Shown one piece after another: positions 11,134-64,000 of a stretch of 64,000 nucleotides of DNA. This stretch comes from Segatella oulorum JCM 14966 (lineage in GTDB: Bacteria > Bacteroidota > Bacteroidia > Bacteroidales > Bacteroidaceae). The translations under genes were made by a program, and so were the position numbers. How positions within the stretch are numbered: the first letter of the stretch is position 1; each line of letters starts with the position of its first letter. The notes below the pieces were generated by a model, which saw only the letters and a list, made by a program, of their open reading frames with translations, did not search any database and was not told where the DNA came from. The stretch is taken from positions 1 through 64,000 of the forward strand of contig NZ_BAJQ01000006.1 of the NCBI RefSeq assembly GCF_000613785.1, written 5' to 3'.

Positions 11134-11505
11134 ATTCTGGGCATCCCGATTCTCAACCTTTTTATAGGTTTTTCGTTTCTTCGACCCGAACTTTTTTTTT
11201 ATCATTCCGGTGTAACCGTCATCTCGAACCTTTTATGTGCAAGGTGAAATCGCAGGCATTAAGGGGACATAAGGCAAACAATTGGCCGGTAAAAGTTTTC
11301 AGGAAACCGCAATCTATGATTCCGGAGGGTCATGAAAAGTTTTCCGCCAATAGGACTTGTTCCGGTGTTTTCCGTGTTCCCTGCCTGCGATACCTTTGCA
11401 AAATAAAAGTCGATAGATGACTACAAGCGGATGAAAAGTGAGGTCGAAATCAGAAACGGAAATGGAAAGATAGATATAAGTGAATGTAAAACAAGTACCG
11501 CAGGT
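11134..11505. repeat. Dispersed repeat R1 with hairpin-embedded promoter
   Basis: The first of five near-identical repeats (R2 33180, R3 54601, R4 60831, R5 63747). Arm A (11238-11268) and arm B (11375-11400) pair as TGCA, AGGT, ATCGCAGGC, AGGG and ACA with small bulges. Arm B contains the -7 box TACCTTTG at 11391-11398; the -33 position, 19 nt upstream, reads TTTT here and TTTG in the other copies. Folded as plus single strand, the promoter would point out of the hairpin base into the minus-strand genes 11078-9415. As duplex DNA it would read rightwards. A 61-codon frame (11235-11420) overlaps the element, but it is frame-broken in R4 and R5. Confidence 0.8.
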
Positions 11506-11517
11506 AAGTCAGGCAGA

Positions 11518-11600
11518 TATATTGCTCTCCATGCGTATATATGTATTGTTGTATATACGTCAATATGTATATATGGCAATAAGTATATAAGAATGATATA
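11518..11600. promoter_or_regulatory. AT-rich GTATA array after R1
   Basis: A run of overlapping GTATATA/TATATAC words (for example GTATATATGTAT and GTATATACGTC) directly follows R1. The same kind of sequence follows R2, R3 and R4 and occurs in the par leader. It is probably a protein-binding array. No perfect long dyad is present in this copy. Confidence 0.45.
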
Positions 11601-11725
11601 GGAATAACAAGATAAGAGGAGCAGCACCCATGACTCATCTAATTTACTTGTTTTAGCAAAAATCGGGATAGTTCATAATTTTAAAGTCCCGAATTTTAAC
11701 ACAAAAAAGCCGTAAATCCGCCTAA

Positions 11726-11799
11726 AACATTTTGAAAATGTTAATATAAGAGTTTCTTTTTTTTAAGGCTGTCTTTCTGATATTAAGTCATTTATTTTG
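11726..11799 (+). promoter_or_regulatory. tra operon promoter with upstream GTTAATATAA box
   Basis: A perfect palindrome AACATTTTGAAAATGTT (11726-11742) overlaps the box GTTAATATAA (11740-11749). The -7-like element TTATTTTG is at 11792-11799, exactly 52 nt from the start of the box, and the ATG of the first tra gene follows 20 nt later. There is no TTTG at the -33 position. Four other operons here have the same arrangement, so an activator bound about 50-60 nt upstream is likely. Confidence 0.75.
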
Positions 11800-11819
11800 T
11801 AGCCAATAAATAAAAGAAT

Positions 11820-12347
11820 ATGGGATCATTCGGTATATACGCAATCGTAGTGACATTCGTCTTTGTTATCTATTATGTAGTTATGATCTGCATGGATTTG
11901 TTCGGGGCGAAAGGTGAGAAGAAAGAAAGTGTAGAAGTCATTCACGCTGGCGCACCTGTCGACAACGCGGATGGCACACCTGCCGTTTCACCTGTCAGAA
12001 TCAGTGAGACCGGTGAAGGAAAGTATCAAATAGAACGTCCCGGTGAAGAAGAACCGGAAAAATACGGGCATGAGACAGAAGAAGCGTCTTCCAATAAGAA
12101 AGGGGACGGCATGGAGACTTCTCAATTTGATCAGAAGCCTCTTACAGCTGAAGATATTGCAGCGTCCGATGCCGAGGAATTAGCCATGCAGGCAAAAGCC
12201 AAGGCCGACTCGATAAGACAAAATTTCAATAATGTTTCTCCGGACATTCAGGGAGCTGTGTATGTAGACGAGTTCGTTGAAGATTATGCTGCCGCCTATT
12301 TGAAAGGCAAGAGTGAAGATGAGCAGGCAGAACAATTAAGTTTCTAA
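11820..12347 (+). CDS. Membrane-anchored acidic protein, first gene of the tra operon
   Basis: 175 residues: one N-terminal transmembrane helix (about residues 6-28) followed by a long, acidic, Glu/Ala-rich and probably disordered cytosolic or periplasmic region with a short helical end (EDYAAAYLKGKSEDEQAEQ). It lies 3 nt before the next tra gene. The position, before the pilin-like genes, matches that of TraD-like small proteins in Bacteroidetes conjugation operons, but sequence alone does not assign it. Confidence 0.5.
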   Translation: MGSFGIYAIVVTFVFVIYYVVMICMDLFGAKGEKKESVEVIHAGAPVDNADGTPAVSPVRISETGEGKYQIERPGEEEPEKYGHETEEASSNKKGDGMETSQFDQKPLTAEDIAASDAEELAMQAKAKADSIRQNFNNVSPDIQGAVYVDEFVEDYAAAYLKGKSEDEQAEQLSF

Positions 12348-12350
12348 GTT

Positions 12351-12707
12351 ATGAAGACATTCAAGTATAAAACATATTTGCTGTTATCGGCATTACTGTT
12401 GCTCACACAGCCAGTCATGGCCACCTGTGGTACGACGGATTACAGTGGCAATTCAGGGCGGTTATATAATATGGTGGTATTCATCTTGACATGCTGTACA
12501 GCCGTATTGTATCTGCTTTATGCCATAGCAGCCATTTTATCCATATACAGCGCGACGAGCATCTATATCAAGATGCAGGCAGGAGAAGAAGGATTTACAA
12601 AGAGCATCATCATTTTAGTCGGCAGCTGCCTTTTCCTGCTTGGGGCCACCATCGTCCTTCCGGCTTTCTTCGGTTTCCAGTTCGGCGTGACCGACAGGCT
12701 TTGGTAA
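12351..12707 (+). CDS. VirB2/TraE-like small membrane protein, 118 aa
   Basis: A signal peptide (MKTFKYKTYLLLSALLLLTQ, cleavage likely after VMA) is followed by two membrane helices (about 40-68 and 84-105). The second half, SATSIYIKMQAGEEGFTKSIIILVGS, is similar in pattern to the next gene (SVYIKMNNEEQDVKKSIMM), a DUF4134 pilin-like TraE. It is thus probably a divergent TraE paralogue, inserted in the inner membrane as a pilus or channel subunit precursor. Two tandem TraE-like genes are notable; the usual operon has one. Confidence 0.6.
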   Translation: MKTFKYKTYLLLSALLLLTQPVMATCGTTDYSGNSGRLYNMVVFILTCCTAVLYLLYAIAAILSIYSATSIYIKMQAGEEGFTKSIIILVGSCLFLLGATIVLPAFFGFQFGVTDRLW

Positions 12708-12758
12708 TTATTTTATTACATATTATTTATTTATTAATTATTTAAAAATTCAAAGACA

Positions 12759-13487: not shown

Positions 13488-16406
13488 ATGATTACCCTTA
13501 TCGTCATATTGGTCTTTGCCTCCATCCTGTTGGGGATATACATTTCCATCAAGATTTTCGGAACAGGCAGTAAACGTGCCAAGGTGTTTGAGGACATCTA
13601 TTTCAGTTTTGAGGACGTGAACGAGATAGGTGTAATCTACACAAAGAAAGGCGATTATTCGGCCATCCTGAAGATGGACAATCCCGTGAGGAAGTACTCT
13701 GCCGATACGGACGGTTATTACGAGTTTACTTCCCTATTGGCATCCGTACTCCAAGTGTTGGGTGAGGGGTATGCTATCCACAAACAAGACATCTTCGTCC
13801 GTAAGAACTTCAATATGTCGAGCATTGCAGGAAAGTGTGCCGATGTAAGAAAGCATTTTCTTTCCGATGCCTATTTCAAGTTCTTCAACGGCCGTCCCTA
13901 TATAGATTCTGAAACCTATCTCACCATCACTCAACGTGGTCGAAATGGCGGTTTAAAGGCATATGATGCCGACAAGTGGCGCGATTTCCAAGTCAAGATA
14001 CAGAAGGTCCATGACCGTCTGAAGAGTGAGGACATCAACTGTCGCTTCCTTACGGGAGACGAATGTAAAGAATATACCGAGCGTTTCTTTGCAGTTGATT
14101 TCAATAATGAGGTCGTTTCCATGAATGACTTCAAGGTGGAGTCCGAGAAAATTGGTATGGGCGATGACCAGTTGAAAATCTACAGCCTCTTGGATGTAGA
14201 TGATCCCGGTCTTCCCGGCACCCTTCGCCCTTATGCCGACATCAATGTCAACAACTCCGTCATGCCGCAGGATCTGCTTTCCGACCTTAGCACACTCCCT
14301 GATGTAGACACGCTTATTTACAATCAGGTTATCTTTCTTCCCAATCAGAAGCGGGAGATTTTAAAGTTGGAGAAAAAGAAGAACCGTCACGCTTCCATTC
14401 CCAATCCGAACAATCAGATTGCCGTTGAAGACATCAATAACGTTCTTAACGAAGTAGCCCGTGACGGCAAGCAGTTTGTTTATGCACATTATAATCTTCT
14501 CGTAAAGACCTCTGCAGACAAAAACCTACAAAAGATCACCAACTGTTTGGAGAACCTTTTAGCAAGATACAGCATGCACCTGTCAAAGCGTGCCTATAAC
14601 CAATTGGAGTTGTTCGTTGCCAGCTTCCCCGGCAACTGTTATGAACTCAATGCCGACTACGACCGTTTCCTGACACTTTCCGACCCTGCACTCTGCCTCA
14701 TGTATAAGGAGCGTCAACAGAAAGGGGATGACACGAACCTGAAATGTTACTACACAGACAGGCAGGGCGTACCGATGGCAGTTGATGTGTCAGGCAAGGA
14801 AGGAAAGATTAGGTATACCGACAACTCCAATTTCTTTGTCCTGGGCCCTTCCGGTAGTGGTAAGAGCTTTTTCATGAATACTGTCATGCGGCAGTACTAC
14901 GAGCAGGATACCGATATTGTCATTGTAGATACCGGTGACAGCTACGAAGGTCTTTGCAGCTATTTCGAGGGCATATACATCACATATTCAAAGGAACATC
15001 CCATCTCGATGAACCCTTTCAAGATAGAGAAAGCGGAATATGAGCAGAACTTCCAAGCGAAGAAAGATTTTCTAAGGAATATAATCTTCCTTATCTTCAA
15101 AGGCAGCGGCGAACCCACGAAGCTCGAAGAGACCATCATCAACCAAACCCTCATAGAATACTTCGAAGAGTATTTCAACCCATTTGAAGGCTTTACCGAA
15201 GAGCAGCGTGAAAACATGCGCCATGTCATGGAACTTGAAGATAAACGTACCGGCAAGTATGAGGAATACGAAGAGGAGCTGGAAAAACGTTACGGAGTAT
15301 CTGATGATATTGACGATATAGAAGAAGATGATGATAATGATGAGAGGAAGAAACAGCGTGACCTTCGTCTCCGTGACAAGCTGCAAGCCGTCATCGACGA
15401 TTCCGCCGCTACTGAAGGAGAAAAAGACAATGCGAAGAGCCAGCTGCTTCGTCGCCTTACCCCTGAACTCATAGAGAGTAAGTATCTTCAGCGTATCAAT
15501 AAGAAGATTGACAAGATAGAACGCCAGCGTAAGAAGATGAGAGTTACGGAACTCAACTTCAATACTTATTATGAGTTCGCCATTGAGCGTATTCCTCAAA
15601 TCATGAAGCAGGATCAGGTTAAATTTGCCATCAACGAGTTTGCCACGATCCTAAAGCCGTTCTATAAGGGTGGAGAGATGGAATACACGCTCAACAACGA
15701 AATGGATTCCTCCCTGTTCAATGAGAAGTTCATCGTATTCGAAATTGACAAAATAAAAGAGAATCCCGTCCTTTTTCCTATTGTCGTGTTGATCATCATG
15801 GATGTCTTCACACAGAAGATGCTCTTAAAGGAAGGCCGGAAATGCCTGGTCATAGAAGAAGCATGGAAAGCCATTGCCACCCCTGTCATGGCCACCTATA
15901 TACAGTATCTATACAAGACAGCCCGTAAACACTGGGCCATGGTCGGCGTGGTAACGCAAGAGATACAGGACGTTACCGAGTCCAAGATTGTCAAGGAGGC
16001 TATCATCAACAACTCCGGCGTGTTCATGCTACTTGACCAGAGCAAGTTCAAGGACAAGTTCGACAACATCAAAAAGACCTTGGCTCTGACCGACATCGAC
16101 TGCAAGAAGATTTTCACCATCAACCGCTTGGAGAATAAGGAAGGCCGTTCCCCATTCAAGGAAGTGTTCATCAAACGTGGTCAGGAAGGCGATGTGTACG
16201 GCATTGAAGAACCGCCGGAGTGTTACATGAGTTACACGACGGAGAAGGTAGAGAAACTTGCCCTGAAACTCTACAAGAAGATTCTCCAATGTGACCACCA
16301 ACACGCCATTGAAGCCTTCGTGCGTGATTGGAAACGCTCCGGAATCAAGAGTTCCTTGGAATTTGCACGGAAAGTACTGAAAGAAAGAAAAGTGTTAGAC
16401 AATTAA
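13488..16406 (+). CDS. traG: TraG conjugation ATPase (VirB4 family)
   Basis: A 972-residue VirB4-type ATPase, longer than the usual 800-850 of Bacteroidetes TraG. One N-terminal membrane segment (about 2-20) is followed by the VirB4 N-terminal domain. Walker A GPSGSGKSFF lies at about 452 and Walker B KCLVIEEAWKAI at about 785, with the TQEIQDV motif at about 822. The extra length is a charged insertion (about 590-690) that contains the acidic run DDIDDIEEDDDNDE. It would energise pilus assembly and substrate transfer at the inner membrane. It follows traF by 33 nt and precedes the large periplasmic protein by 13 nt. Confidence 0.92.
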   Translation: MITLIVILVFASILLGIYISIKIFGTGSKRAKVFEDIYFSFEDVNEIGVIYTKKGDYSAILKMDNPVRKYSADTDGYYEFTSLLASVLQVLGEGYAIHKQDIFVRKNFNMSSIAGKCADVRKHFLSDAYFKFFNGRPYIDSETYLTITQRGRNGGLKAYDADKWRDFQVKIQKVHDRLKSEDINCRFLTGDECKEYTERFFAVDFNNEVVSMNDFKVESEKIGMGDDQLKIYSLLDVDDPGLPGTLRPYADINVNNSVMPQDLLSDLSTLPDVDTLIYNQVIFLPNQKREILKLEKKKNRHASIPNPNNQIAVEDINNVLNEVARDGKQFVYAHYNLLVKTSADKNLQKITNCLENLLARYSMHLSKRAYNQLELFVASFPGNCYELNADYDRFLTLSDPALCLMYKERQQKGDDTNLKCYYTDRQGVPMAVDVSGKEGKIRYTDNSNFFVLGPSGSGKSFFMNTVMRQYYEQDTDIVIVDTGDSYEGLCSYFEGIYITYSKEHPISMNPFKIEKAEYEQNFQAKKDFLRNIIFLIFKGSGEPTKLEETIINQTLIEYFEEYFNPFEGFTEEQRENMRHVMELEDKRTGKYEEYEEELEKRYGVSDDIDDIEEDDDNDERKKQRDLRLRDKLQAVIDDSAATEGEKDNAKSQLLRRLTPELIESKYLQRINKKIDKIERQRKKMRVTELNFNTYYEFAIERIPQIMKQDQVKFAINEFATILKPFYKGGEMEYTLNNEMDSSLFNEKFIVFEIDKIKENPVLFPIVVLIIMDVFTQKMLLKEGRKCLVIEEAWKAIATPVMATYIQYLYKTARKHWAMVGVVTQEIQDVTESKIVKEAIINNSGVFMLLDQSKFKDKFDNIKKTLALTDIDCKKIFTINRLENKEGRSPFKEVFIKRGQEGDVYGIEEPPECYMSYTTEKVEKLALKLYKKILQCDHQHAIEAFVRDWKRSGIKSSLEFARKVLKERKVLDN

Positions 16407-22862: not shown

Positions 22863-22863
22863 A

Positions 22864-24183
22864 ATGGATGTAAAGAAAATCAATTTTAAAGACCGAAAGT
22901 ATGTTTTTCCGGCTATCCTATACCCATTGGTTTTGTTCGTGGGATACTTCATCATCGATGCCGTACATACCGACGTGTCCGACAACGACCCGCGTTTGGC
23001 TACAACAGATTATTTGAACTCTGATCTTCCTGCTGCCAATACTGACAGTGTGTTGGGCGGCAAGTTGGACAATGCCGAGCGTGAGTATGGACAAATCAAT
23101 GACCTTTCCGGTGTCGAGAATGTTGAGAATGACCGGGACTCGGTTAACAAGAAGGAGGATTACAGTTCACAGTATAGTGACAGGGAGGCTGAAATGGTGC
23201 GACGGCAGCAAGAACAGCAGCAGGCACAGCGGGAAGAACAGCGCAAAATCCAAGAGATGCAAGACCGCGTCCGCCGAGGGAGGAGTCATTCTCGCGGCTC
23301 TTCTTCCGGTGACAACTTTGTGGCTCCGGTCAGCGATTCCGAGATAGCCCGGCTTGACCGCAGGAGACGGCAAAGTGAAATGGAGAATATAAACGATGAT
23401 CTTAATGGTGTCGCTTTCGGTTCCCCGTCACGTCGTGGCAGATATGGCAATGAAGGTGGTTATGGCGGTGATGACGAATATGGTCTACCCATAGCCGGTT
23501 CGCATAACGGTGGCAACAACCTGTCTTATGGCAACAACGGTTCTTCGGTGTCTTCCGGAACGGACAACAATGCCCGTGAGGCAGGAGAACGGCCGGAGGG
23601 AGTGCCGGAAAAGGTTGTCAAGAAAGTAAAGACCCCTTCCGACTATTTCAATACCATTTCCTCTTCTTCAACAGAAGAGTCCAAGCTCATCAAAGCCATC
23701 ATCGACGAGGATGTGAAAGTACAGGAGGGAAGCCGTGTGCGCCTTCGCTTGTTGGATGATGTGGAAATTGGCGATATGACCGTCAAGAAAGGGACTTATC
23801 TCTATGCCCAGATGTCAGGTTTCGGACATCAGCGAGTAAAAGGAACCGTACAAAGCATCTTCAGCAAAGAAGAGATTATCCGCGTCAGCCTTTCCATCTA
23901 TGACACGGACGGTCAGGAAGGTCTATATGTTCCATTGTCCTCCTTTAAAGAGACCGGCAAGGAAATTCTCGGTTCTGCTACGCAGGGCGGAACGAACATC
24001 GTAGACAACACCACCTCTTCAACTGGAGTCAAGGGTTGGGCCAGCCAAGCTGTACAGAATGCCTCGCAGCAGGTGATGAATGCCGTAGGCAAAGTCATTC
24101 GCAGGAACAGGGTGAAGCTGAAGTATGGCACGCTCGTTTATCTGATAGACGGAAGCCAGCAAGAGAAGCGACAAAGAAAGTAA
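22864..24183 (+). CDS. traM: TraM, core-complex protein (VirB10-like role)
   Basis: 439 residues. A membrane helix near the N terminus (about 17-35) is followed by a long low-complexity linker: Glu/Gln/Arg-rich (REAEMVRRQQEQQQAQREEQ) and then Gly/Asn-rich. The C-terminal domain (about 265-435) has the TraM pattern VQEGSRVRLRLLDDVEIGD ... KKGTYLYAQMSGFGHQRVKG and ends in a basic tail. It spans the periplasm with the linker, as VirB10 does. The Gly-rich linker region is probably the most variable part among relatives. Confidence 0.85.
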   Translation: MDVKKINFKDRKYVFPAILYPLVLFVGYFIIDAVHTDVSDNDPRLATTDYLNSDLPAANTDSVLGGKLDNAEREYGQINDLSGVENVENDRDSVNKKEDYSSQYSDREAEMVRRQQEQQQAQREEQRKIQEMQDRVRRGRSHSRGSSSGDNFVAPVSDSEIARLDRRRRQSEMENINDDLNGVAFGSPSRRGRYGNEGGYGGDDEYGLPIAGSHNGGNNLSYGNNGSSVSSGTDNNAREAGERPEGVPEKVVKKVKTPSDYFNTISSSSTEESKLIKAIIDEDVKVQEGSRVRLRLLDDVEIGDMTVKKGTYLYAQMSGFGHQRVKGTVQSIFSKEEIIRVSLSIYDTDGQEGLYVPLSSFKETGKEILGSATQGGTNIVDNTTSSTGVKGWASQAVQNASQQVMNAVGKVIRRNRVKLKYGTLVYLIDGSQQEKRQRK

Positions 24184-32967: not shown

Positions 32968-32998
32968 CAAAGATATGAAGATTTTCCTAAACCACAAA
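32968..32998 (-). promoter_or_regulatory. higBA promoter
   Basis: On the minus strand TTTG (32998-32995), 19 nt, then TATCTTTG (32975-32968): an exact Bacteroidetes consensus. The higB ATG (32944) follows 23 nt after the -7 box, the same short spacing as at the other promoters of this window. Confidence 0.85.
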
Positions 32999-43977: not shown

Positions 43978-44027
43978 ATTTTCAAAACGTTTTTGGGCGG
44001 TTTTACGGTGTTTTTCGTTTTTGAAAT

Positions 44028-44087
44028 GTTAATATAAGACTTCCTTTTTTTTCGAGCCCCCTATTAAAACGGTTTATTTTATTTTTG
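44028..44087 (+). promoter_or_regulatory. Promoter of the 44108 operon with GTTAATATAA box
   Basis: GTTAATATAA (44028-44037) and TATTTTTG (44080-44087) are 52 nt apart (start to start). The ATG at 44108 follows 20 nt after the -7 box. The region 43968-44037 therefore carries two divergent boxes of the same regulon, back to back. Confidence 0.75.
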
Positions 44088-44107
44088 TAATCATAAAATA
44101 CGAGTAG

Positions 44108-50896: not shown

Positions 50897-53140
50897 ATGG
50901 AAGAAAGTAAAGAAATACAGGGAACGTACAGTATTTTCAGGACAACCATATATGTATCACTCCTTTTGGAGTTCTTCATGTATGCCTTGGATCCGGCTGC
51001 GTTGAGCAGATTAGGAGGTATCGTGAACAGTTTTCATCATCGGCTCGGGATACTGTCCGTGTATCAGTTCCTTCCCTACTCAAAGATGGTTACGCTCATG
51101 CTGGTAATCATCACCTGCATAGGTACAAAGAACAAGAAACAGATAGAGTTCGATGCACGCAAAATGGTATTCTATCCGTTTGCCCTCGGCTTTGGTTTAG
51201 TAGTGGCTTCTGTGCTTGTCTATAACAGCGATTGGCATGTCAGGTTGTGGATCCTGAAAGCCAATGTGTGGGTTTATATGGGCGTGTCTGTCATAGGGAC
51301 AATACTCGTCCATACAGCCCTTGACAATGTATCGAAATATTTCAAGGATGGCATGCTCAAAGACCGCTTCAATTTCGAGAATGAGAGTTTCGAGCAGACA
51401 ACAGAGCTTGTCGAGAACAAGTATTCCGTCAATATCCCTATGCGTTACTACTACAAGGGTAAGTTCAGGAGGGGTTGGATCAATATTGTCAATCCCTTCC
51501 GAGGCACATGGGTTGTGGGCACGCCCGGTTCCGGTAAGACATTCTCTGTCATAGAGCCTTATATCCGTCAGCATTCGGCCAAGGGTTTTGCGATGGTTGT
51601 CTATGACTACAAGTTCCCGACGCTTGCAACCAAGCTCTATTATCATTATAGGAAAAATCAGGTGCAAGGTAACCTGCCAAAAGACTGTAACTTCAATATC
51701 ATTAACTTTGTCAATATTGAGTACAGCGCACGCGTCAATCCTATCCAGCAGAAATACATTGCGAATTTGGCGGCAGCACAGGAAACGGCAGAGACACTTA
51801 TTGAGTCCCTTCAAAAGGGACAGAAAACTTCCGGTGGTGGTTCCGACCAATTCTTCCAGACATCTGCCACCAACTTCCTTGCAGCCTGTATCTTCTTTTT
51901 CGTCAACTATAACAAGAAGCCTTTTGACGAGAACGGCAATGAACTCTTCCCCGAATACGGCGAGGATAAGGAAACCCACCATAAGCGGTTGACAGGAAGA
52001 GTCTTCAATGATACGAAACAGATTGGCAACAAGGAATACCAGGTGCAACCGGCCTATTGGAAAGGTCAGTATTCTGACATGCCCCACGTGCTCTCGTTCC
52101 TGAATCACTCCTATGATGAGATCTTTGAAGTCTTGAAGACCGATCCGGAGGTCTACCCGCTTTTGGGGCCTTTCATGACCGCCTTTGACAATGGTGCCAT
52201 GGAGCAGCTGGAAGGTATGATAGGCACGTTGCGTGTGCAGACTTCACGCTTGGCCACCAAGGAATCCTATTGGGTGTTTAGTGGGGACGATTTTGATTTG
52301 AAGGTGTCGGATCCCCGGCATCCAAGTTATCTGCTTATTGCCAATGACCCGGAAATGGAGAGCATCATTGGAGCACTCAATGCCCTGATTCTGAACCGTC
52401 TTGTCACCCGTGTCAACAGCGGTATGGGAAAGAATGTCCCGGTAAGCATCATTGTCGATGAGCTGCCGACACTCTACTTCCATAAGATAGACCGCTTGAT
52501 AGGAACCGCCCGAAGCAATAAGGTTGCAGTGACATTAGGTTTTCAGGAACTGCCGCAGTTGGAAGCAGACTATGGAAAGGTGGGCAAGGATAAGATTATT
52601 ACCACTGTAGGTAATGTCGTTTCCGGCTCTGCACGCTCAAAAGAAACGCTCGATTGGCTGTCGGGCGACATCTTCGGAAAGGTCGTACAACTCAAAAAAG
52701 GAATTACCATCGACAGGGACAGAACATCCATCAATCTCAATGAGAATATGGACAGCCTTGTTCCTGCCTCCAAAATCAGTGATATGGCTTCGGGATGGCT
52801 GTGTGGCCAGACTGCCCGGGATTTCGTCGTAACGAAGACTGGAAGACGGGGCTCGATGGATATTCAGACTGCTGAAGAATTCAGAACCACCAAGTTCTTT
52901 TGCAAGACTTCTTTTGACATGGAACAGATCAAGGCAGAGGAGACAGACTACAGCAATTATCCTATCCCGAAGTTCTACCACTTCGATTCTGAAGACTCCA
53001 AGGAGCGTATTCTATATGCCAACTTTGAGCGGATAGACCAAGAGGTAAAGAATATGATAAAGATTGTCCAGACAGAGTTCAAAAAGGAAGAAGGCACTCA
53101 AACAGCCCATAGGAAGAGCAACAGGAAGTCTTCCAAATAA
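50897..53140 (+). CDS. Type IV coupling protein (VirD4/TraG-type ATPase)
   Basis: 747 residues. N-terminal membrane helices (about 15-32, 50-75, 95-113, 118-140) anchor the protein; Walker A GTPGSGKTFSV is at about 208 and the Walker B region VSIIVDELPTLYF at about 515. The C-terminal motif with TLGFQELPQLEADYG (about 544-558) and the VSGSARSKETLDWLSG segment are those of Bacteroidetes coupling ATPases. It brings the relaxase-DNA complex to the channel. It is the last gene of the 44108 operon and is followed by a terminator. Confidence 0.92.
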   Translation: MEESKEIQGTYSIFRTTIYVSLLLEFFMYALDPAALSRLGGIVNSFHHRLGILSVYQFLPYSKMVTLMLVIITCIGTKNKKQIEFDARKMVFYPFALGFGLVVASVLVYNSDWHVRLWILKANVWVYMGVSVIGTILVHTALDNVSKYFKDGMLKDRFNFENESFEQTTELVENKYSVNIPMRYYYKGKFRRGWINIVNPFRGTWVVGTPGSGKTFSVIEPYIRQHSAKGFAMVVYDYKFPTLATKLYYHYRKNQVQGNLPKDCNFNIINFVNIEYSARVNPIQQKYIANLAAAQETAETLIESLQKGQKTSGGGSDQFFQTSATNFLAACIFFFVNYNKKPFDENGNELFPEYGEDKETHHKRLTGRVFNDTKQIGNKEYQVQPAYWKGQYSDMPHVLSFLNHSYDEIFEVLKTDPEVYPLLGPFMTAFDNGAMEQLEGMIGTLRVQTSRLATKESYWVFSGDDFDLKVSDPRHPSYLLIANDPEMESIIGALNALILNRLVTRVNSGMGKNVPVSIIVDELPTLYFHKIDRLIGTARSNKVAVTLGFQELPQLEADYGKVGKDKIITTVGNVVSGSARSKETLDWLSGDIFGKVVQLKKGITIDRDRTSINLNENMDSLVPASKISDMASGWLCGQTARDFVVTKTGRRGSMDIQTAEEFRTTKFFCKTSFDMEQIKAEETDYSNYPIPKFYHFDSEDSKERILYANFERIDQEVKNMIKIVQTEFKKEEGTQTAHRKSNRKSSK

Positions 53141-53221: not shown

Positions 53222-54061
53222 TTATCTGCGGAAATGCCGGCGAGGTTTCTGTTCTTCTTCCTCCTCTTCTTCATCTTCCATAGATAAATTGTAATTTTCA
53301 ATTTCCTGTTGAAGATTCTTGGCGTGCTCCTGGAACATGAAGTCTTGGAACGGGACATTTGATTCTTCCTCCCTCGACTTCACCAAGGCGTTGATATATT
53401 CGGCCTTATCCTCCTTCAACACCTTATTAGGTACCAAACCAAACTCATTTTGAAGATGATTCATGATCAACCTCGACATCCTGCCATTACCGTCTACCCA
53501 TGGATGGATTGTCACGAGCTTCAGATGTGCGTCAAAGCTCAAACGGTATTGCTCATATACATCTGGGTTCTTTAACAGCGGTTCCCGTCTTTCGTTCATT
53601 TCCTTGCAGAAATCTTCTAACTTCTGTGGAACTTTCAGGTAACTCATATAAGACTTCCCCATAGTTCCTGCCGTAACGTTTACCCGACGTAAATCTCCCT
53701 TTGATGAGTCAAATACACCACCAGGTGCATTGAATATCCCTCCAGTTCTTCTCATTACAATTGAAGACAGTTCCTTCAGCATATCGATGGAGAAAGGTGT
53801 GTGTTCCCTTGCCATTTCCATGCTCCTTTCGTAGGCAGCTTTCAGGTCGAGGTTCATGTTCTGCTCAATGATGCTTTTACCCTTGGCAGAAAGACCCTCG
53901 TCAAAGAGCAGCTGGTTCTCCACCTCGGTCATCGTCGAGCCTTCGATAGCAGTTGAATGGGTCACGATTGAGTAAAGATAGAACTTTTCATAGTCTATCT
54001 GTTCTTGGAAGCCCAATTCCTTGTGCTCTTCCAATATATCTAAAAATTCTTGTTTATTCAT
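53222..54061 (-). CDS. Fic-domain protein with N-terminal inhibitory motif
   Basis: From ATG 54061 (MNKQEFLDILEEHKE) the protein is 279 residues; the upstream codons overlap the promoter and are not used. The Fic core HPWVDGNGRMSR (about 186-197) is complete, so it should transfer AMP or another nucleotide part to a target. The segment STAIEGS (about 36-42) matches the (S/T)xxxE(G/N) inhibitory motif, N-terminal as in class II. The C terminus is an acidic EEEEEEEQ run and a basic tail. A toxin-like or effector role on the plasmid is possible. It is the second gene of the R3 module. Confidence 0.85.
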   Translation of the reverse strand: MNKQEFLDILEEHKELGFQEQIDYEKFYLYSIVTHSTAIEGSTMTEVENQLLFDEGLSAKGKSIIEQNMNLDLKAAYERSMEMAREHTPFSIDMLKELSSIVMRRTGGIFNAPGGVFDSSKGDLRRVNVTAGTMGKSYMSYLKVPQKLEDFCKEMNERREPLLKNPDVYEQYRLSFDAHLKLVTIHPWVDGNGRMSRLIMNHLQNEFGLVPNKVLKEDKAEYINALVKSREEESNVPFQDFMFQEHAKNLQQEIENYNLSMEDEEEEEEEQKPRRHFRR

Positions 54062-54082
54062 AATTGTCTTATCTTTAGACAG

Positions 54083-54113
54083 CAAATATACTAATTTACG
54101 GTTGATTAAACAA
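54083..54113 (-). promoter_or_regulatory. Promoter of the Fic gene
   Basis: TATATTTG on the minus strand (54090-54083) is a -7 box of the form TAnnTTTG, with TTG at 54113-54111 near the -33 position. The ATG at 54061 follows 21 nt later. This fixes the start of the Fic gene. Confidence 0.65.
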
Positions 54114-54144
54114 TTTTTTAAGGAGAAAAAGCCTGTACCCTCAT

Positions 54145-54546
54145 TTAAAGCACTTCGGAATGATATAGCTGCAACCACTCCGGTATCTCCCGAAGAACAC
54201 GGGCTTCAGCCAACGCATTGGAAGAAGTGTCTTTGAGATAGGTGATTTTCCGTGTACCATTGAAGTCATGTTCTTGAAACCTTATGACAAACATACCTTC
54301 CGGATCGCCGACTATCCACCAATTGGGATCACTTGCCCGCTGTAATACGAAACGGTCAACCGGAACAGGTAGTACTGCTTCCTCGCCAACAAGAACGGCA
54401 TCAATGACTTGCGCTGAACCGATAAACTCCGTTGTCTGTGGCAAAGCTAACAGACGCTCTACGGCTTCATCACGGCTATTGCCGACAGATGTAGCCTGTA
54501 TTTCATTACCATCGGACAATTTAATAATGAACTTATATCTTTTCAT
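54145..54546 (-). CDS. Orphan protein, 133 aa, first gene downstream of R3
   Basis: From ATG 54546 (MKRYKFIIKLSDG) the product is a small beta/alpha protein, with a domain of about 60 residues (SDGNEIQATSVGNSRDEAVE) and a C-terminal YLKDTSSNALAEARVLR segment. The start lies just before the R3 leader, which shares its first 50 bp with the leader of the 10545 orphan. Function unknown; a candidate entry gene. Confidence 0.5.
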   Translation of the reverse strand: MKRYKFIIKLSDGNEIQATSVGNSRDEAVERLLALPQTTEFIGSAQVIDAVLVGEEAVLPVPVDRFVLQRASDPNWWIVGDPEGMFVIRFQEHDFNGTRKITYLKDTSSNALAEARVLREIPEWLQLYHSEVL

Positions 54547-54600
54547 TTTATTTCCCGTCATGCCGATAGGTCAGCTTTATAATTTATGAAGTTATTATTT

Positions 54601-54970
54601 ATTCTGGGCATCCCGATTCTCAACCTTTTTATAGTTTTTTCGTTTCTTCGACCCGAACTTTTTTTTATCATTCCGGTGTAACCGTCATCTCGAACCTTTT
54701 ATGTGCAAGGTAAAATCGCAGGTATTAAGGGAACTTAAGGCAAAGAATTGGCCGGTAAAAGTTTTCAGGAAACCGCAATCTTTGATTTCGGAGGGTCATG
54801 AAAAGTTTTCCGCCAATAGGGAGCATTCCGGTGTTTGCCGTGTTCCCTGCCTGCGATACCTTTGCAAAATAAAAGTCGATGGATGACTACAAGCGGATGA
54901 AAAGTGAGGTCGAAATCAGAAACGGAAATGGAAAGATAGATATAAGTGAATGTAAAAAAACACCGCAGGT
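54601..54970. repeat. Dispersed repeat R3 with hairpin-embedded promoter
   Basis: Arm A 54704-54734 pairs with arm B 54841-54865 through TGCA, AGGTA, ATCGCAGG and GGGAAC; GGCAAA pairs with TTTGCC. Promoter: TTTG 54834-54837, 19 nt, TACCTTTG 54857-54864. On the left are the minus-strand genes 54145 and the Fic protein; on the right the relaxase gene is convergent to the duplex reading direction. This copy is just left of the relaxase gene. Confidence 0.8.
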
Positions 54971-55055
54971 GTAGCGCGTATAGCCGTATGCCCGTATATA
55001 CATATATACGTATAGATGTATATACATGTTGTGCTATACTTGTATTGGAGTATAA
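54971..55055. promoter_or_regulatory. AT-rich GTATA array after R3
   Basis: Contains GTATAGCCGTATG, GTATATACATATATACGTATAG and TATATACATG, similar to the arrays after R1 and R4. No perfect long dyad, but GTATAGC half-sites are kept. Confidence 0.45.
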
Positions 55056-55137: not shown

Positions 55138-56661
55138 TTATCGCTTGATATTCCTTTTCTTACCTGATTTCAGCATGTGCATCCCCATTAGGAAACAGCG
55201 TTGCCGGAACGCTATATCGTCCTCGTCAGGCTTCTTACCCCAGCCTCCATTAGGCGCGGAACCGCCGCCGGCACTCTGCGAAATCTCTGTTGCCTTATCA
55301 AGATAGCCAAGAAAAAGAGCCGTGGCGACCAAGGCAACCTGGCTTGAATTTTCTGCCATCTGTTCGAACATAGAACCTTCAGAAAATCCTTTAGTCGCTT
55401 CGTCAAAAGCCACTCTCTGCTCTGGCGGAAGAGACTCACGGTAAGCATTAAATTTACTATAAGACTTTTGCGCTTCTATCGAGGCCATATTCCATCCAAC
55501 AGCTTGCATGTCATGTAGGGCTTGCGTATTCAAGTTGGGTGCCATCGAACGCATGTCATCCTTGATTTCCTTATACCGCTCTTCGGTAGCTTCAGTCTGT
55601 CCCCTCACTAATTCAAGTTTTCTCTCTGCTTCAGCGAGCTTACTTTGTTTGTCAATAATTTTCTCCTTCGTTTTTTCAATATCAGCGAGGATTTTTGCAC
55701 GTTCGATGTCAGCCTGTTCTTTAGTTATCTTTCCTGCCTTGACATCATTTTCTAACTTCTCAATCTCACGGAGCAAGTCAGCTTTATGTCGTTCAAGATT
55801 AGCTATCATGGTAGTAAGACCCTTCAACCTTGCCTCTCCATGTTTGATTTCTTTTTCTTGTTCAGATAGTCTAACTTTGTTTCTTGAGATCTGCTTTTTC
55901 TGCTCTGCAACATCTTCTTTTAAGCTATCTACTTCTCCCTTCAGTTCTTCTCTTTTTTGTGCATAATATTCACCCATTGTTCTATGCTTACGCCCAGTTT
56001 CTGCAATACTGTCACCACGGTCAAGAGAGTACTTCTTATTAACTTCTGAAAGCTCATTATGAAGGTTCGTCATACGCTGACTAAATTCAAATTTACTCTG
56101 CCCTGCCATAACCATTTTCCAAGAGAATTTATTCCTCTCCGTTATTGGTAAAATTGTGCAATGAATATGAGGGTTTGTTTCATCAAGATGTACTATAAAA
56201 GCTGCGATATTCTTTTCACCATATTTTTTACTCATAAACTTGTACATGTCGACAGCCCATTTTTCTATTTCAGGGCTGCGAGTAATTTTCGAATTGTCAG
56301 CTCCCTTGTCCAAGTTCACCTGTTGTTCACCGAAGGCCAAACGGTGCATCTGATCCCTCGAACCACCCAAGATGAAATTTGCAACAGTCCGGTACTTCGG
56401 TTCCGGAAGTCCGAGGTTAGGGTCTATTATATTCCTTGCCTTCAAATTGTCTTTGATTCGTTTGGGGATTGAGAGCTGCTTATCGACTGGGACTATCACA
56501 CCCCCTTTGCGAACTTCAAAATTAAGATGCTCACGTGTCGGGTCAAAAGCATACGATAGTTTTCTCCGGTATGCTTCCGCCGAGAAGTTTCGTAGATGCT
56601 CATTGCTTTGAGCAACAGTAATGCCTTTCGTAGGCATAAGATCCATTACTTGTTTTGCCAT
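55138..56661 (-). CDS. MobV/Pre-family relaxase
   Basis: 507 residues. The signature HLDETNPHIH lies at residues 158-167, the metal-binding HxDExxPHxH of the MobV (plasmid recombination/mobilisation) family. N-terminal motif I is present (RNFSAEAYRRKLSYAFDPTR). The C-terminal half is a long coiled coil (about 240-385) rich in Glu and Lys, then an acidic/Gly-rich end. It would nick oriT, bind the 5' end and lead transfer of one strand. oriT is probably the region upstream of the gene, 56.66-56.98 kb. Confidence 0.9.
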   Translation of the reverse strand: MAKQVMDLMPTKGITVAQSNEHLRNFSAEAYRRKLSYAFDPTREHLNFEVRKGGVIVPVDKQLSIPKRIKDNLKARNIIDPNLGLPEPKYRTVANFILGGSRDQMHRLAFGEQQVNLDKGADNSKITRSPEIEKWAVDMYKFMSKKYGEKNIAAFIVHLDETNPHIHCTILPITERNKFSWKMVMAGQSKFEFSQRMTNLHNELSEVNKKYSLDRGDSIAETGRKHRTMGEYYAQKREELKGEVDSLKEDVAEQKKQISRNKVRLSEQEKEIKHGEARLKGLTTMIANLERHKADLLREIEKLENDVKAGKITKEQADIERAKILADIEKTKEKIIDKQSKLAEAERKLELVRGQTEATEERYKEIKDDMRSMAPNLNTQALHDMQAVGWNMASIEAQKSYSKFNAYRESLPPEQRVAFDEATKGFSEGSMFEQMAENSSQVALVATALFLGYLDKATEISQSAGGGSAPNGGWGKKPDEDDIAFRQRCFLMGMHMLKSGKKRNIKR

Positions 56662-56819: not shown

Positions 56820-56885
56820 CACGAAGTCCCCCCTCGCCGGGGTGGCAATACCCCCAAATTTTGATTTGGGGGGTATTAGGCTACC
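56820..56885. other. Candidate oriT hairpin
   Basis: AATACCCCCAAAT (56847-56859) and ATTTGGGGGGTATT (56864-56877) form an almost perfect inverted repeat separated by a few bases. A further short C-rich/G-rich pair (CCCC TCGC CGGGG, 56828-56842) lies to its left. It lies in the 316-bp gene-free stretch between the relaxase and its accessory gene. MobV-family origins are typically a hairpin next to the nick. The nick itself cannot be placed by reading alone. Confidence 0.55.
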
Positions 56886-56977
56886 TCCCAATGTAAAACA
56901 ATTCATTTCGTTTGCAAAACGATCGCTCATGCGCAAGCGCATGTACCAAGACTTTGTCTTTTCCATCTCCAGGTTCA

Positions 56978-57406
56978 TTAAAAATGAAATGTCAAGCCGG
57001 ATTTTCGGGATGGATAAAATCCCTCTCCGTTATTTCTCAACATCTTTTGCCGGGGCAAAACGACGATATCTTTTCGGAGTCTGACCATTTTGCTCGTGAC
57101 AACATTGAAGACTTCCAGAACATTCATTGTCTCTAAATTTTGGATGAACTTCATGACCGATGGTCGACTCCAGCCCCAAGACTTCGACAGACACTCTATA
57201 TTTGCGACCATATCCTCTTGTTTCCTCTCGGAGGTACAATGACGTGCCACAAGATCCCGAAAGGCCTGCAGGCGAGAAAAACGCTTTGCGTTCTTGTAAG
57301 TGTAGTCTCCGCAGAGAAACTTAAGCAGGTCGGAAGACATTCTTACATGATAGTTCTTATAACCATTTTGAACGACTTCTTTATCTATCATTTTATCGTT
57401 AGTCAT
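56978..57406 (-). CDS. wHTH accessory protein upstream of oriT
   Basis: 142 residues with a winged-helix-like middle (CLSKSWGWSRPSVMKFIQNL, about residues 72-91) and a basic C terminus (DIVVLPRQKMLRNN). It is encoded directly next to the candidate oriT and upstream of the relaxase gene. A relaxosome accessory or a regulator of relaxase expression is the likely role. No family name is secured. Confidence 0.55.
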   Translation of the reverse strand: MTNDKMIDKEVVQNGYKNYHVRMSSDLLKFLCGDYTYKNAKRFSRLQAFRDLVARHCTSERKQEDMVANIECLSKSWGWSRPSVMKFIQNLETMNVLEVFNVVTSKMVRLRKDIVVLPRQKMLRNNGEGFYPSRKSGLTFHF

Positions 57407-59737: not shown

Positions 59738-59797
59738 CGAAGATACAAACCTCACGATGAAAATGAGGTATCAAAAAAATAAAAGTCTTATATTAAC
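59738..59797 (-). promoter_or_regulatory. Promoter of the lipoprotein operon with GTTAATATAA box
   Basis: GTTAATATAA on the minus strand (59797-59788) is followed by TATCTTCG (59745-59738), 52 nt from box start to -7 start. TTTTGAAAAT precedes the box, as at the tra promoter. There is no TTTG at the -33 position. The chosen ATG (59716) lies 21 nt downstream. Confidence 0.75.
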
Positions 59798-59854
59798 ATT
59801 TTCAAAATCTTTTGGAAAAACTTCCTGTCTTCTTATTTTGTTAATGTACATTAA

Positions 59855-60471: not shown

Positions 60472-60801
60472 TTATGCAGTCTTATCAAGCATATATATTT
60501 TTGTTGCTACTTCTAAAGCTTCTTTTTTGGATGTGTAAAACTCCATGAAAGTCTCGCTTCTTTTAAAAGGATCGGATCCTTCAAAGTATTTGTCATATAT
60601 GTCATAAAAGCGGATACGGTATTTTTGCCAACCATTCGATGAGTGATGGAACTCTATCCAAAGGCCAAACACAATTTTGCCGTCGTTATCTATAAGTCTA
60701 TATGACTTCAGATAGTCCTCCTCCTTTTCGCAAGAGAATGGTCTCCCGAATGTGCTACTGTAACTGTACTTGTAAGCGTACTCCATTCTAAGTTTTTTCA
60801 T
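60472..60801 (-). CDS. Orphan protein, 109 aa, first gene downstream of R4
   Basis: Aromatic-rich small protein: FGLWIEFHHSSNGWQKYRIR (about residues 45-64) and a C-terminal helix (TSKKEALEVATKIYML). Start at ATG 60801, about 30 nt before R4. Three orphan genes follow R4 in one direction up to the terminator. Candidates for anti-defence or entry functions, on position only. Confidence 0.5.
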   Translation of the reverse strand: MKKLRMEYAYKYSYSSTFGRPFSCEKEEDYLKSYRLIDNDGKIVFGLWIEFHHSSNGWQKYRIRFYDIYDKYFEGSDPFKRSETFMEFYTSKKEALEVATKIYMLDKTA

Positions 60802-60830: not shown

Positions 60831-61200
60831 ATTTCGGGCATCCCGATTCTCAACCTTTTTATAGGTTTTTCGTTTCTTCGACCCGAACTTTTTTTTATCA
60901 TTCCGGTGTAACCGTCATCTCGAACCTTTTATGTGCAAGGTAAGATCACAGGTATTAAGGGAACCTAAGGCAAAGAATTGGCCGGTAAAAGTTTTCAGGA
61001 AACCGCAATCTATGATTTCGGAGGGTCATGAAAGTTTTCCGCCAATAGGGAGCATTCCGGTGTTTGCCGTGTTCCCTGCCTGCGATACCTTTGCAGAATA
61101 AAAGTCGATGGATGACTACAAGCGGACGAAAAGTGAGGTCGAAACCAGAAACGGAAATGAAAAGATAGATATAAGTGAATGTAAAACAAGCACCGCAGGT
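60831..61200. repeat. Dispersed repeat R4 with hairpin-embedded promoter
   Basis: Arm A 60934-60964 and arm B 61070-61095 pair as in R3 with one A-C mismatch in the ATCGCAGG block. Promoter: TTTG 61063-61066, 19 nt, TACCTTTG 61086-61093. The 61-codon frame of R1-R3 is broken here by one lost A in the AAAA run near 61033. On the left are three minus-strand orphan genes. Confidence 0.8.
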
Positions 61201-61223
61201 GCAGCGTGTGTAGCCGTATGTCC

Positions 61224-61263
61224 GTATAGCTGTATATACATCTATATGTATATACAGCTATAT
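61224..61263. promoter_or_regulatory. Perfect 17-bp-arm palindrome after R4
   Basis: TATAGCTGTATATACAT (61225-61241) and ATGTATATACAGCTATA (61246-61262) are exact reverse complements. The outer half-sites GTATAGC and GCTATAT enclose 26 bp; the par leader has the same half-sites 10 bp apart and the site at 62623 has them 18 bp apart. Confidence 0.75.
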
Positions 61264-61556
61264 ATATTGTCGGTAAAAGGTTGGGTGTATAGATAGCCGG
61301 GCATAAAGGAACGGCACTTGCCTTCAGGCGTGTGCCTGTTCCGTGGCCGGGTGTGGGGCGGCAGGCTCCACAAGAAGTATAGTCCTCTCTCCCGAAGCAG
61401 CTCTGACGGCAAGTCTGTGCTGTCTTGTGTCTGATGGAATTCCGGCACGGAACGGAAGAGGACATAAGAGGGTTTAAGAAGTAAGCCTGCTTGCATGAAA
61501 GATAGGTATGGACACCGCCGTATGGCGTGATAGCAGATGCGATTGCAGCAGACATG
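61264..61556. other. Gene-free stretch between R4 array and ssb terminator
   Basis: About 290 bp without a convincing gene. It contains GTGTGGGGCGGCAGGCTCCAC (about 61349-61369), similar to the terminator hairpin at 62897 but without a T-run. A long minus-strand frame crosses it and R4 but has no family and no support. Confidence 0.4.
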
Positions 61557-62257: not shown

Positions 62258-62422
62258 AAGGATGAAACCAAGGCCAAGAAGCTGCCACCGCTGCCGGTAT
62301 CGGTAAACACACTTGACCGCACGGGAAAGAAAATGACAGTACCGCTGCCAGGCCCTGAAACCTGGGTGAATGAAGTTGTGCCAGCAAAGCTACCGCTGCC
62401 GAAGAAGGGCAAGGACAGGTAA
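62258..62422 (+). pseudogene. Remnant reading frame without start codon
   Basis: A 54-codon frame beginning after TGA (62255-62257), with no ATG near, reads as a Pro/Leu-rich peptide (KKLPPLPVSVNTLDRTGKKM ... LPLPKKGKDR). It looks like coding sequence that has lost its 5' part. No family is recognised. Confidence 0.3.
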
Positions 62423-62896
62423 AGGGGTAAGCCGTCAGAGAACGTCCATGGACAGTAAGAGATACCATGATACAGTCTCGCCACTTGGTTCCGCCGTCAT
62501 GGGAAAGAGCGGAAGTCTCAAAGGCAATGATCGAAGAAGGCTGCAAGCGGTGCCATGGTAGGGGACGGAAAAGGGATGTACCATTATAAGGTCTGCAAGG
62601 CAATCCGCATAGATGTATGTTCGTATAGCCATATATACGTATATACAGCTATACAAGAATGCACCTATATGGTAATATGGAAATATAGGAATACGGCAAT
62701 AAAGATATGCCGGTATATAGAAAGAAGGGAGAGTATCCTACATCCAACAATGTGGGCAGTGTCTGCAAGTCTCTGCCCTTCCGCTTTTGGGAGCTTTTTC
62801 CTGCAGCGTGCCGGAAGGTGAAAGCGACACCGGCGAACAGGCTCCGACAGCGTTCTTGATGTTCAATCTTGAAGGGAGCCGATTTATAATCAGGGT
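62423..62896. promoter_or_regulatory. Gene-free stretch with the GTATAGC dyad at 62623
   Basis: GTATAGC (62623-62629) and GCTATAC (62648-62654) enclose an AT-rich 18-bp core. Further words like CCTATATGG and CGGTATATAG follow, and CGGCAATAAAGATATGCCG (about 62694-62712) is a small hairpin. No convincing gene is seen. It may be another site of the GTATA family, without an R repeat beside it. Confidence 0.5.
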
Positions 62897-62924
62897 GTGG
62901 GGCGGTAAGCCCCACCGATTTTTT
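62897..62924 (+). terminator. Rho-independent terminator, plus strand
   Basis: GTGGGGC (62897-62903) pairs with GCCCCAC (62909-62915) over a 5-nt loop, followed by CGATTTTTT. It would end rightward transcripts from the 62.2-62.8 kb region. Confidence 0.8.
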
Positions 62925-62988
62925 CGGCATGAAAATTCAAGAAGTGAGATGCCGGGCGATACCTGACACCTCACTCATATCAAACCAC

Positions 62989-63330
62989 CTACATATCTGG
63001 TAACTCATCAAGTATGTTCTCCAAATGTCCTAAGACTATATCCAGCTTCAAATCTGTGATGGTTCCCTCAAAGCCAGCTTCTTTATCTTTTACCAATATT
63101 GACAGGAAACCGTCTTCTTCCTTTATCGCCATTACTTCCAGGTCCGCAGGTTCATCTCCCAGGTATCCCATGATGTAAGGATGCTCCGCTTTTTCTCCTT
63201 GTTCCTCGCCGTCATAGTCCATTCCAAAATGAAATTCATGGTTAGGGAGTTTCCGCAAAGCGTCGATTAGTTCCTGCTTCTGTCGTTTGTAAATCTCTTC
63301 GTAAAGAGGGGCATAATCAAAATGTTTCAT
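62989..63330 (-). CDS. Acidic orphan protein, 113 aa, second gene of the R5 module
   Basis: Start at ATG 63330 (MKHFDYAPLYEEIYKRQKQE). A helical N-terminal part is followed by an acidic alpha/beta body (YDGEEQGEKAEHPYIMGYLG). Strongly acidic overall, like DNA-mimic anti-restriction proteins, but no family can be named. It starts 45 nt after the 63376 stop. Confidence 0.5.
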   Translation of the reverse strand: MKHFDYAPLYEEIYKRQKQELIDALRKLPNHEFHFGMDYDGEEQGEKAEHPYIMGYLGDEPADLEVMAIKEEDGFLSILVKDKEAGFEGTITDLKLDIVLGHLENILDELPDM

Positions 63331-63375
63331 TGCTTTGTATGTTTTAGCAAGGTGGGGGGCACCTTGCATTGGTTA

Positions 63376-63717
63376 TTAATCAAGGGTTTCATAAAAATAG
63401 TCTAACTCTCCGCCTTTCAGGTTCTCGCACCCATAGTTATCCGCTTCTTCCCAAAGGGCATTGTAAACACGTGCCAACTCATCGTTTTTCTCGTACCATT
63501 GCCAAATTTTATGATTGAGCACCATAACAAGCTCGGTCAGAAATTTATAGTCACCTTTCCATTCTTCAAAAGCTCGTTTGAAAGTGCCTTTTACTGCCTC
63601 TATGCCAAATTGCTCTGCCGTAGAGAAATCACTCCAAAATGTTGTGAGAGGCTTGTAACCTGTCATCTTTTCAATGTTCCACATTGGTGTTACAAATTGA
63701 ATTTTTGCTGTTTCCAT
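63376..63717 (-). CDS. Orphan protein, 113 aa, first gene downstream of R5
   Basis: A soluble acidic protein rich in Trp and Tyr (FEEWKGDYKFLTELVMVLNH; ALWEEADNYGCENL). The start (63717) lies about 30 nt before R5. No family is recognised. Candidate entry gene. Confidence 0.5.
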   Translation of the reverse strand: METAKIQFVTPMWNIEKMTGYKPLTTFWSDFSTAEQFGIEAVKGTFKRAFEEWKGDYKFLTELVMVLNHKIWQWYEKNDELARVYNALWEEADNYGCENLKGGELDYFYETLD

Positions 63718-63746
63718 TTTCTTATTGTTTTATGAATTTAACATTT

Positions 63747-64000
63747 ATTCTGGGCAACCCGATTCTCAACCTTTTTATAGGTCTTTTGTTTCTTCGACCC
63801 GAACTTTTTTTTATCATTCCGGTGTAACCGTCATCTCGAACCTTTTATGTGCAAGGTAACATCGCAGGTATTAAGAGAACCTAAGGCAAAGAATTGGCCG
63901 GCAAAGTTTTCAGGAAACCGCAATCTATGATTTCGGAGGGTCATGAAAAGTTTTCCACCAATAGGAAGCATTCCGGTGTTTGCCGTGTTCCCGGCCTGCG
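63747..64000. repeat. Dispersed repeat R5, cut by the window end
   Basis: The first 254 bp of the element. Arm A (63849-63880) is complete; TTTG of the -33 box is at 63979-63982, and the window ends within the 19-nt spacer, 1 nt before the expected -7 box. The 61-codon frame is broken by a lost base near 63902. On the left are two minus-strand orphan genes. Confidence 0.8.

Follow-up and report, generated by a model that had tools for sequence, protein, structure and literature searches.

The stretch of Segatella oulorum JCM 14966 analysed here (the window; the first 64,000 bases of the 67,640-bp contig NZ_BAJQ01000006.1) carries a repeated hairpin, R, that raises an apparent paradox: in duplex DNA the -33 and -7 promoter boxes of R would face away from the gene that the hairpin seems to serve. 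How, then, could such an element act on that gene? Frpo hairpins, described in parts of PMC9849209 and PMC11541004, offer a precedent, as their -10 and -35 boxes drive ssb, psiB and other genes from the entering strand and fall silent upon duplex conversion; single-stranded promoters of this type are established for enterobacterial plasmids. We consider it probable that each R is likewise a folded-strand promoter, similar to Frpo/ssi, that is recognized by the Bacteroidota sigma factor and active on the entering single strand.

Six copies of R lie on the contig, all on the + strand, and genome-wide matching found none elsewhere in the genome. Every copy has a -33 element TTTG (TTTT in R1), a spacer of 19 nt (6/6 copies) and then TACCTTTGC, all within the 3' arm of an imperfect hairpin of about 300 nt. 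R1 occupies 11150-11467, with TTTT at 11368-11371 and the -7 box TACCTTTG at 11391-11398; R2 lies at 33216-33508 (TTTG at 33414-33417, -7 at 33437-33444), R3 at 54637-54928 (-33 at 54834-54837, -7 at 54857-54864) and R4 at 60855-61164 (-33 at 61063-61066, -7 at 61086-61093). R5 begins at 63763 and runs past the end of the window (64000) to contig position 64079; its -33 box is at 63979-63982, and its -7 box, which a first-pass annotation of the window had placed beyond the window end, is indeed found at contig 64002-64009. That annotation had proposed the same promoter layout for R1-R5, which is borne out, and a sixth copy, R6, can be added outside the window (contig 66126-66485, + strand, -33 at 66375 and -7 at 66398).

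When folded as DNA, all six copies exceeded simple shuffles (z -6.2 to -11.5; 30 shuffles each), and four stretches (R1 twice, R3 and R4) exceeded dinucleotide shuffles with z-scores of -8.0, -6.8, -9.2 and -5.8, none of these shuffles folding as well as the four. R thus folds better than shuffled sequence throughout (z -5.8 to -11.5). The hairpin was correctly described as carrying the promoter in its 3' arm, but its span of 292-318 nt exceeds the stem length given before. Both boxes had been expected to become duplex in the fold, and for the most part they do: in each copy 7/8 bases of the -7 box and 4/4 of the -33 box (3/4 in R1) are paired in the stem. The short matches quoted between the two arms hold in part, being imperfect in R1 (GGGGAC), R2 (ATCGCTGG), R4 (ATCACAGG) and R5 (GAGAAC). 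With six copies holding the boxes in the 3' arm and folding this strongly, the geometry first proposed is therefore right, and as in Frpo-type elements the 3' arm of the stem holds both boxes for the main sigma factor, the pairing having been read in the six contig copies. Beside the hairpins, arrays of 8-base units resembling CGTATATA follow each of R1-R4 (11526-11596, 33568-33686, 54977-55047 and 61207-61277), and a further array of this kind lies between R4 and R5 (62590-62684).

Relatives of R are distant in sequence and consistent in structure. A blastn search with R1 (390 nt) at E 1e-5 returned a single match among 72,556 plasmid records, a Segatella plasmid, so R does not belong to the enterobacterial Frpo family by sequence, and the same query had no match among 50,697 phage records. 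Distant copies on a Segatella copri plasmid and in genomes of the genus are about 63-67% identical over the longer local alignments (about 77% for locus L008). A consensus structure of 81 pairs was derived from ten sequences, and 24 of the 81 pairs show changes on both sides. Paired cells amount to 83.1%, compared with 76.2% after shuffling (0 of 500 shuffles reached the observed value), and slid structures reach at most 46.2%, a control that leans towards the consensus because the structure comes from the same ten sequences. Folding and covariation together point to a stable hairpin on a given strand that is conserved across relatives, which is again a property of Frpo-type elements. Searching Rfam 15 at the gathering score with the window and three other sources (L013, L056 and L059), we found no family that matches the hairpins; the sole match was a group II intron in L059.

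A covariance model of the hairpin matches 47 of 399 genomes of the taxonomic family of S. oulorum, in 9 of 30 genera (E 0.01). At E 0.001 only 3 of 393 genomes sampled from the order match, including that of the window and one of its genus, and only 1 of 395 from the phylum, that of the window; because of this scarcity, we regard the hairpin family as centred on the taxonomic family of the window. A pattern scan of named genomes gave 49 stretches, 45 of which match the model, with titles that include Bacteroides, Phocaeicola, Parabacteroides, Prevotella, Xylanibacter, Leyella, Mediterranea, Duncaniella and others, as well as one Acetatifactor metagenome-assembled genome. The loci examined are regions from 42 of the 47 matching genomes (41 others and the contig end) rather than every place in them. 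With the window and the S. copri plasmid they yielded 136 model matches, and removal of two duplicates of window copies and five opposite-strand echoes of the same hairpins left 129 hairpins in 62 loci; eight of these hairpins had gone into the covariance model. On the S. copri DSM 18205 plasmid (NZ_CP085933, 148-159 kb), four model matches lie upstream of radC, two ssb genes and a relative of the R5 gene; the plasmid is typed as non-mobilizable despite these four matches.

The promoter motif is confined to one arm across this set. TANNTTTG is present in the 3' half of 115 of the 129 hairpins (107 of the 121 that were not used in the model), but in the 5' half of that strand in 6/129 and at the mirrored position of the opposite strand in 4/129. 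The base that follows it is C in 99% of 95 distinct sequences, which fits the -7 consensus TANNTTTGY given in a portion of PMC12632263, and AAAA is found at +14 to +17. Between 17 and 22 nt upstream of TANNTTTG there is TTTG in 26 cases and CTTG in 75 (together 101/115), whereas either word occurs 17-23 nt from control positions of the same sequences in 142 of 1,924 cases; the Bacteroidota promoter consensus appears as TAnnTTTG / TTTG in a section of PMC7366714. The hairpin, its covariation and the restriction of the motif to one arm are established at the level of sequence.

The genes next to the hairpins have an equally clear orientation. A left-going open reading frame (ORF) of at least 60 aa with an ATG start is found -40 to 250 nt from the left edge of 121/129 hairpins, and a right-going one at the mirror place in 57/126; for ORFs of at least 100 aa the counts are 103/129 and 20/126. 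Sampling these loci at 2,480 random points gave background rates, left and right, of 38% and 34% for 60 aa and of 23% and 17% for 100 aa. A single-strand promoter, it had been stated, would be contradicted if homologues preceded genes of either direction with the same frequency, and the count (121/129 vs 57/126) favours it instead. A cruder gene call, which takes the nearest ORF of at least 60 aa and permits alternative start codons, gave 104 left-going and 25 right-going left neighbours. Distances between hairpin and gene cluster: they are 46-67 nt in 72 of the 121 cases and 100-137 nt in another 19. In 121/129 cases, then, the gene is 5' of the hairpin and so oriented that the folded strand would be its template, as it is for Frpo-type promoters, and this orientation and spacing are firm features of the set.

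This arrangement bears on another possibility, namely that R acts in duplex DNA as a conventional promoter of a small RNA that runs rightwards (an antisense regulator or a primer), the leftward genes being there by chance. The -33/-7 pair does point right in the duplex, and about 100 nt to the right of the hairpin are similar among R1-R4. However, right-going ORFs of at least 100 aa (20/126) occur at the background rate (17%), and a rightward RNA, which we regard as very unlikely, would explain neither why base changes around the boxes compensate each other nor why left-going genes start at clustered distances.

The genes predicted to be driven by the hairpins are also poor in promoter motifs of their own. 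TANNTTTG occurs on the sense strand within 400 nt upstream of 15/121 driven genes, compared with 88/337 background first genes (Fisher p 0.0015). Since most of these genes lack it, the promoter motif near them is that of the antisense hairpin arm, which is what a folded promoter would require. It could be argued that the hairpin is instead an RNA leader of the leftward mRNA (an attenuator, antiterminator or stabiliser) whose promoter lies further right; the genes are indeed co-directional and downstream, and on several viral contigs with related hairpins (see below) the hairpin-linked genes lie within mostly co-directional gene runs. Such a leader, though, would not account for the sigma-ABfr -7 box in the antisense arm (115/129), and the Rfam search over four sources matched no family to the hairpins. 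A structure formed by the minus-strand RNA should moreover enrich A.C over G.T mismatches on the + strand, and the reverse was observed (G.T 308 vs A.C 197; isolated mismatches 93 vs 53), mostly owing to base make-up. We consider the leader quite unlikely. As a test of which strand folds, this wobble-pair comparison was set aside, since the G.T excess largely disappears after correction for base make-up (expected from the mismatched sites, G.T 244 vs A.C 162); it counts as weak evidence against a structure in the mRNA.

The proteins encoded by the driven genes are diverse, forming 84 clusters at 90% identity and 34 families. Pfam searches with the 34 family representatives found SSB (two families), RadC, ArdA, WYL_2, LPD11 and DUF4313, with DUF1281_C matched weakly, and NCBIfam added a phosphoribosyltransferase-like member. 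Integron attC sites are folded single-strand DNA elements repeated between gene cassettes, and R resembles them in being repeated between genes as a folded element. The recurrence of the hairpin beside many genes that are unrelated to one another (34 families) could mean that R is an attC-like recombination site that shuffles cassettes. Unlike attC, however, R holds a promoter, and a recombination site would need neither a conserved promoter in one arm nor clustered gene spacing; we find this reading highly improbable.

R is also regular in its strand. Two or more hairpins are present in 34 of the 62 loci, and none of these is of mixed strand. The window encodes a Mob_Pre (MOBV-type) relaxase on the minus strand (55138-56661; E 3.8e-16, 59.9 bits vs a cut-off of 25.5, matching the second profile half only), and homologues are found in 19 loci (the window and 18 others). 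In 16 of these loci, three near-identical ones having been removed, 36/36 hairpins are on the strand that does not encode the relaxase. Across all genomes searched, 59 hairpins have a Mob_Pre relaxase on the same contig and no more than 60 kb away (29 relaxases), and 58 of these hairpins are opposite its coding strand.

Which strand is cut can be approached through the predicted origin of transfer (oriT; 56847-56883, +), in which an inverted repeat (56847-56877) adjoins the conserved TATTAGGCTA. Inverted repeats flank a conserved core, which reads TAGCCTAATACCCC on the coding strand, directly upstream of the relaxase genes of the window (56840-56990) and of the homologous loci. In 13 of 14 loci, near-identical ones among them, a small hairpin on the R strand is found directly 5' of TATTAGGCTA, with L100 irregular; on the far side of the core the inverted repeat, judged by eye, varies in its distance or is absent. 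The inverted repeat that a relaxase binds usually lies 5' of the nick. This anatomy, together with the position of the repeat on the R strand, points to the R strand as the one that would be cut and transferred, with the nick in oriT next to TATTAGGC. A section of PMC5863519 places IR1 of pMV158 "8 nt upstream". The oriT core was sought on the S. copri plasmid and is not there (one match with two mismatches), and a search of the Bacteroides literature for a named oriT nick gave nothing usable, the available part of PMC5729914 mentioning a nick site of CTn341 but neither its sequence nor its strand.

Conjugation is not the only setting of the hairpin. A pattern scan of IMG/VR gave 75 stretches, and the covariance model matches 36 sites in 32 of them, from 31 records. 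Thirty viral records searched contain no PF03432 relaxase and two Mob_Pre relaxases, so that 28/30 are without a detected relaxase, although records may be fragments; both of the two viral contigs read more fully encode tape-measure proteins (PHROGs). The 18 viral sites that were folded, which include several near-duplicates and two sites in Mob_Pre records, have z-scores of -3.4 to -9.1 (20 simple shuffles each), and an ORF of at least 40 aa lies within 100 nt, left-going, in 17/18 and, right-going, in 6/18. At L194 and at L144, whose contig is among the two with tape-measure proteins, the left-going ORF encodes an ArdC-type antirestriction protein (ArdcN, E 2.1e-23 and 2.4e-23), which fits a role of these genes on arrival and not a mechanism restricted to conjugation.

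Such findings favour, to some extent, a folded promoter that forms in duplex DNA (as a cruciform under negative supercoiling) or on the single strands of replication, and that serves phages and conjugative elements alike. Early promoters of phage N4 are known to act through cruciform extrusion under negative supercoiling, the orientation of promoter and gene would be the same as for entry of a single strand, and the viral contigs share the geometry while mostly lacking a detected relaxase. On the other hand, arms of about 150 nt with bulges generally extrude poorly, and the relaxase strand rule (58/59) is not needed by such a model, which we judge unlikely.

Some further observations concern the viral contigs. 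At L137, L143, L151, L178, L194, L144 and others, the hairpin is often directly upstream of a family of 71-77 aa proteins. Ten proteins of three viral contigs had no match in PHROGs, and ten proteins of five contigs gave one Pfam match, on a contig that also carries a Mob_Pre relaxase. A 544-aa protein of L137, taken by eye for a terminase, finds no support in Pfam or PHROGs.

To return to the folded-strand promoter, its action could proceed as follows. While the R strand is single-stranded, most likely on entry into a recipient, the hairpin would make both boxes double-stranded; RNA polymerase would then bind, leave through the base of the hairpin and transcribe the R strand leftwards, through genes for small orphan proteins, SSB, RadC, antirestriction and toxin-antitoxin functions. 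Synthesis of the second strand would remove the hairpin and silence the genes, and R may additionally help to prime the complementary strand. Were the R strand the one transferred, R4, R5 and R6 of the window's contig would be in the leading region, about 4, 7 and 9 kb in. We infer that polymerase uses the R strand and that expression is early and transient. The first-pass annotation had read R1-R5 as single-stranded DNA promoters for entry genes, and this is supported in part: the hairpin, the promoter in the 3' arm, the leftward genes and the consistency of strand hold over the 129 hairpins.

Several points weigh against this mechanism. First, with the R strand transferred, 27 of the 36 hairpins near relaxase homologues (those downstream of the relaxase gene) would enter late, and 9 of the 36 (those upstream) would lead. 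Second, the MOBV1 plasmid pMV158 transfers the relaxase-coding strand (PMC5863519, in part), here the other strand, and in one discordant contig (G228:C1) relaxase and hairpins share a strand, about 9-16 kb apart. Third, related hairpins on viral contigs, mostly without a detected relaxase, are left unexplained by conjugative entry. Finally, strict TTTG is met in only 26/129 hairpins; the fraction with TANNTTTG is biased upward because the model sequences contain the -7 box, a bias to which the contrast between arms and strands is less exposed; and the G.T excess in the stems is largely explained by the make-up of the mismatched sites.

In the window, leftward genes adjoin all five R copies, as first noted. 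R1 would drive a 177-aa orphan (10545-11078, -; no Pfam match at E 0.1), followed by a Toprim_2 (primase-like) protein (9415-10443, -; Pfam E 7.1e-06). R2 had been assigned an orphan and higBA; its neighbour is in fact a truncated relative of a 78-aa family (32987-33190, -), and the higBA-like toxin-antitoxin pair (32277-32944, -; HigB_toxin and HTH_3 matches) lies beyond it. To the left of R3 are a predicted driven 138-aa orphan (54145-54561, -) and a Fic-family protein (53222-54178, -; E 2.2e-12). R4 would serve a 109-aa orphan (60472-60801, -), and R5 a 113-aa orphan (63376-63717, -), of a family shared with a hairpin-adjacent gene on the S. copri plasmid, and then a 126-aa orphan (62989-63369, -). 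Conjugation genes on the + strand encode a type IV coupling protein (50897-53140; E 1.5e-17), a TraG-type ATPase (13488-16406; E 2.3e-116) and a TraM protein (22864-24183; E 8.1e-36). ArdC-like proteins start at 33929 and 39923, the former a 1,249-aa protein (33929-37678) that combines an ArdC N-domain, a zincin-like peptidase and a match to MutS domain I. A separate motif around GTTAATATAAG, with a T-rich tail, occurs at 11724-11801, 33829-33906 and 44012-44089 (+) and at 43954-43993 and 59774-59813 (-), directly upstream of ORFs that start at 11820, 33929 and 44108 (+) and 43895 and 59755 (-); it may be a duplex promoter or regulator site that these ORFs share.

Frpo/ssi of F and ColIb-P9, reportedly described by Masai and Arai in 1997, resemble R in being one-strand hairpins with both promoter boxes in the stem. 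An element can hold several of them, and they precede genes (ssb, antirestriction and orphan genes) for which the hairpin strand is the template. On the F plasmid, leading and tra genes are co-directional on either side of what we take to be the place of oriT, as in the window, and strong folds lie upstream of ssb and of an antirestriction gene, where promoter boxes could not be placed. R differs in the host phylum, in its sigma-ABfr boxes (TTTG or CTTG / TANNTTTGC instead of -35/-10), in the many copies on the oriT side that would enter late and in its relatives on phage contigs. Promoters of the N4 virion polymerase are short-stem hairpins, active only when folded and read by a phage polymerase; R shares with them, as proposed here, activity only in the folded state, but consists of hairpins of about 300 nt with host sigma boxes. 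The first-pass annotation knew of no described Bacteroidetes case, and a literature search of titles and abstract starts, with subscription papers and preprints mostly outside its coverage, found no Frpo-like promoter in Bacteroidales; the word start "bacteroid" is absent from the main text of PMC11541004 (a 2024 survey) and of PMC12826799. On function-like evidence drawn from sequence, R is probably a widely spread new variant of the Frpo kind in Bacteroidales, and it is not a sequence member of the Frpo family.

More tentatively, and with less than even confidence, we suggest that a single family of folded-strand promoters, read by the host polymerase, is common to conjugative elements, plasmids and tailed phages of Bacteroidales and turns on establishment genes (SSB, ArdA, ArdC, RadC and orphans) as foreign DNA arrives, whatever its vehicle. 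Given the copies on viral contigs, it may be asked what lets a folded promoter form where there is no conjugation. With a family of this kind in Bacteroidales, a major group of gut bacteria, establishment genes could be recognized from a sequence marker; most of the genes so marked are of unknown function and now candidates for anti-defence roles. The family would also predict the polarity of transfer of the integrative and conjugative elements that carry it.

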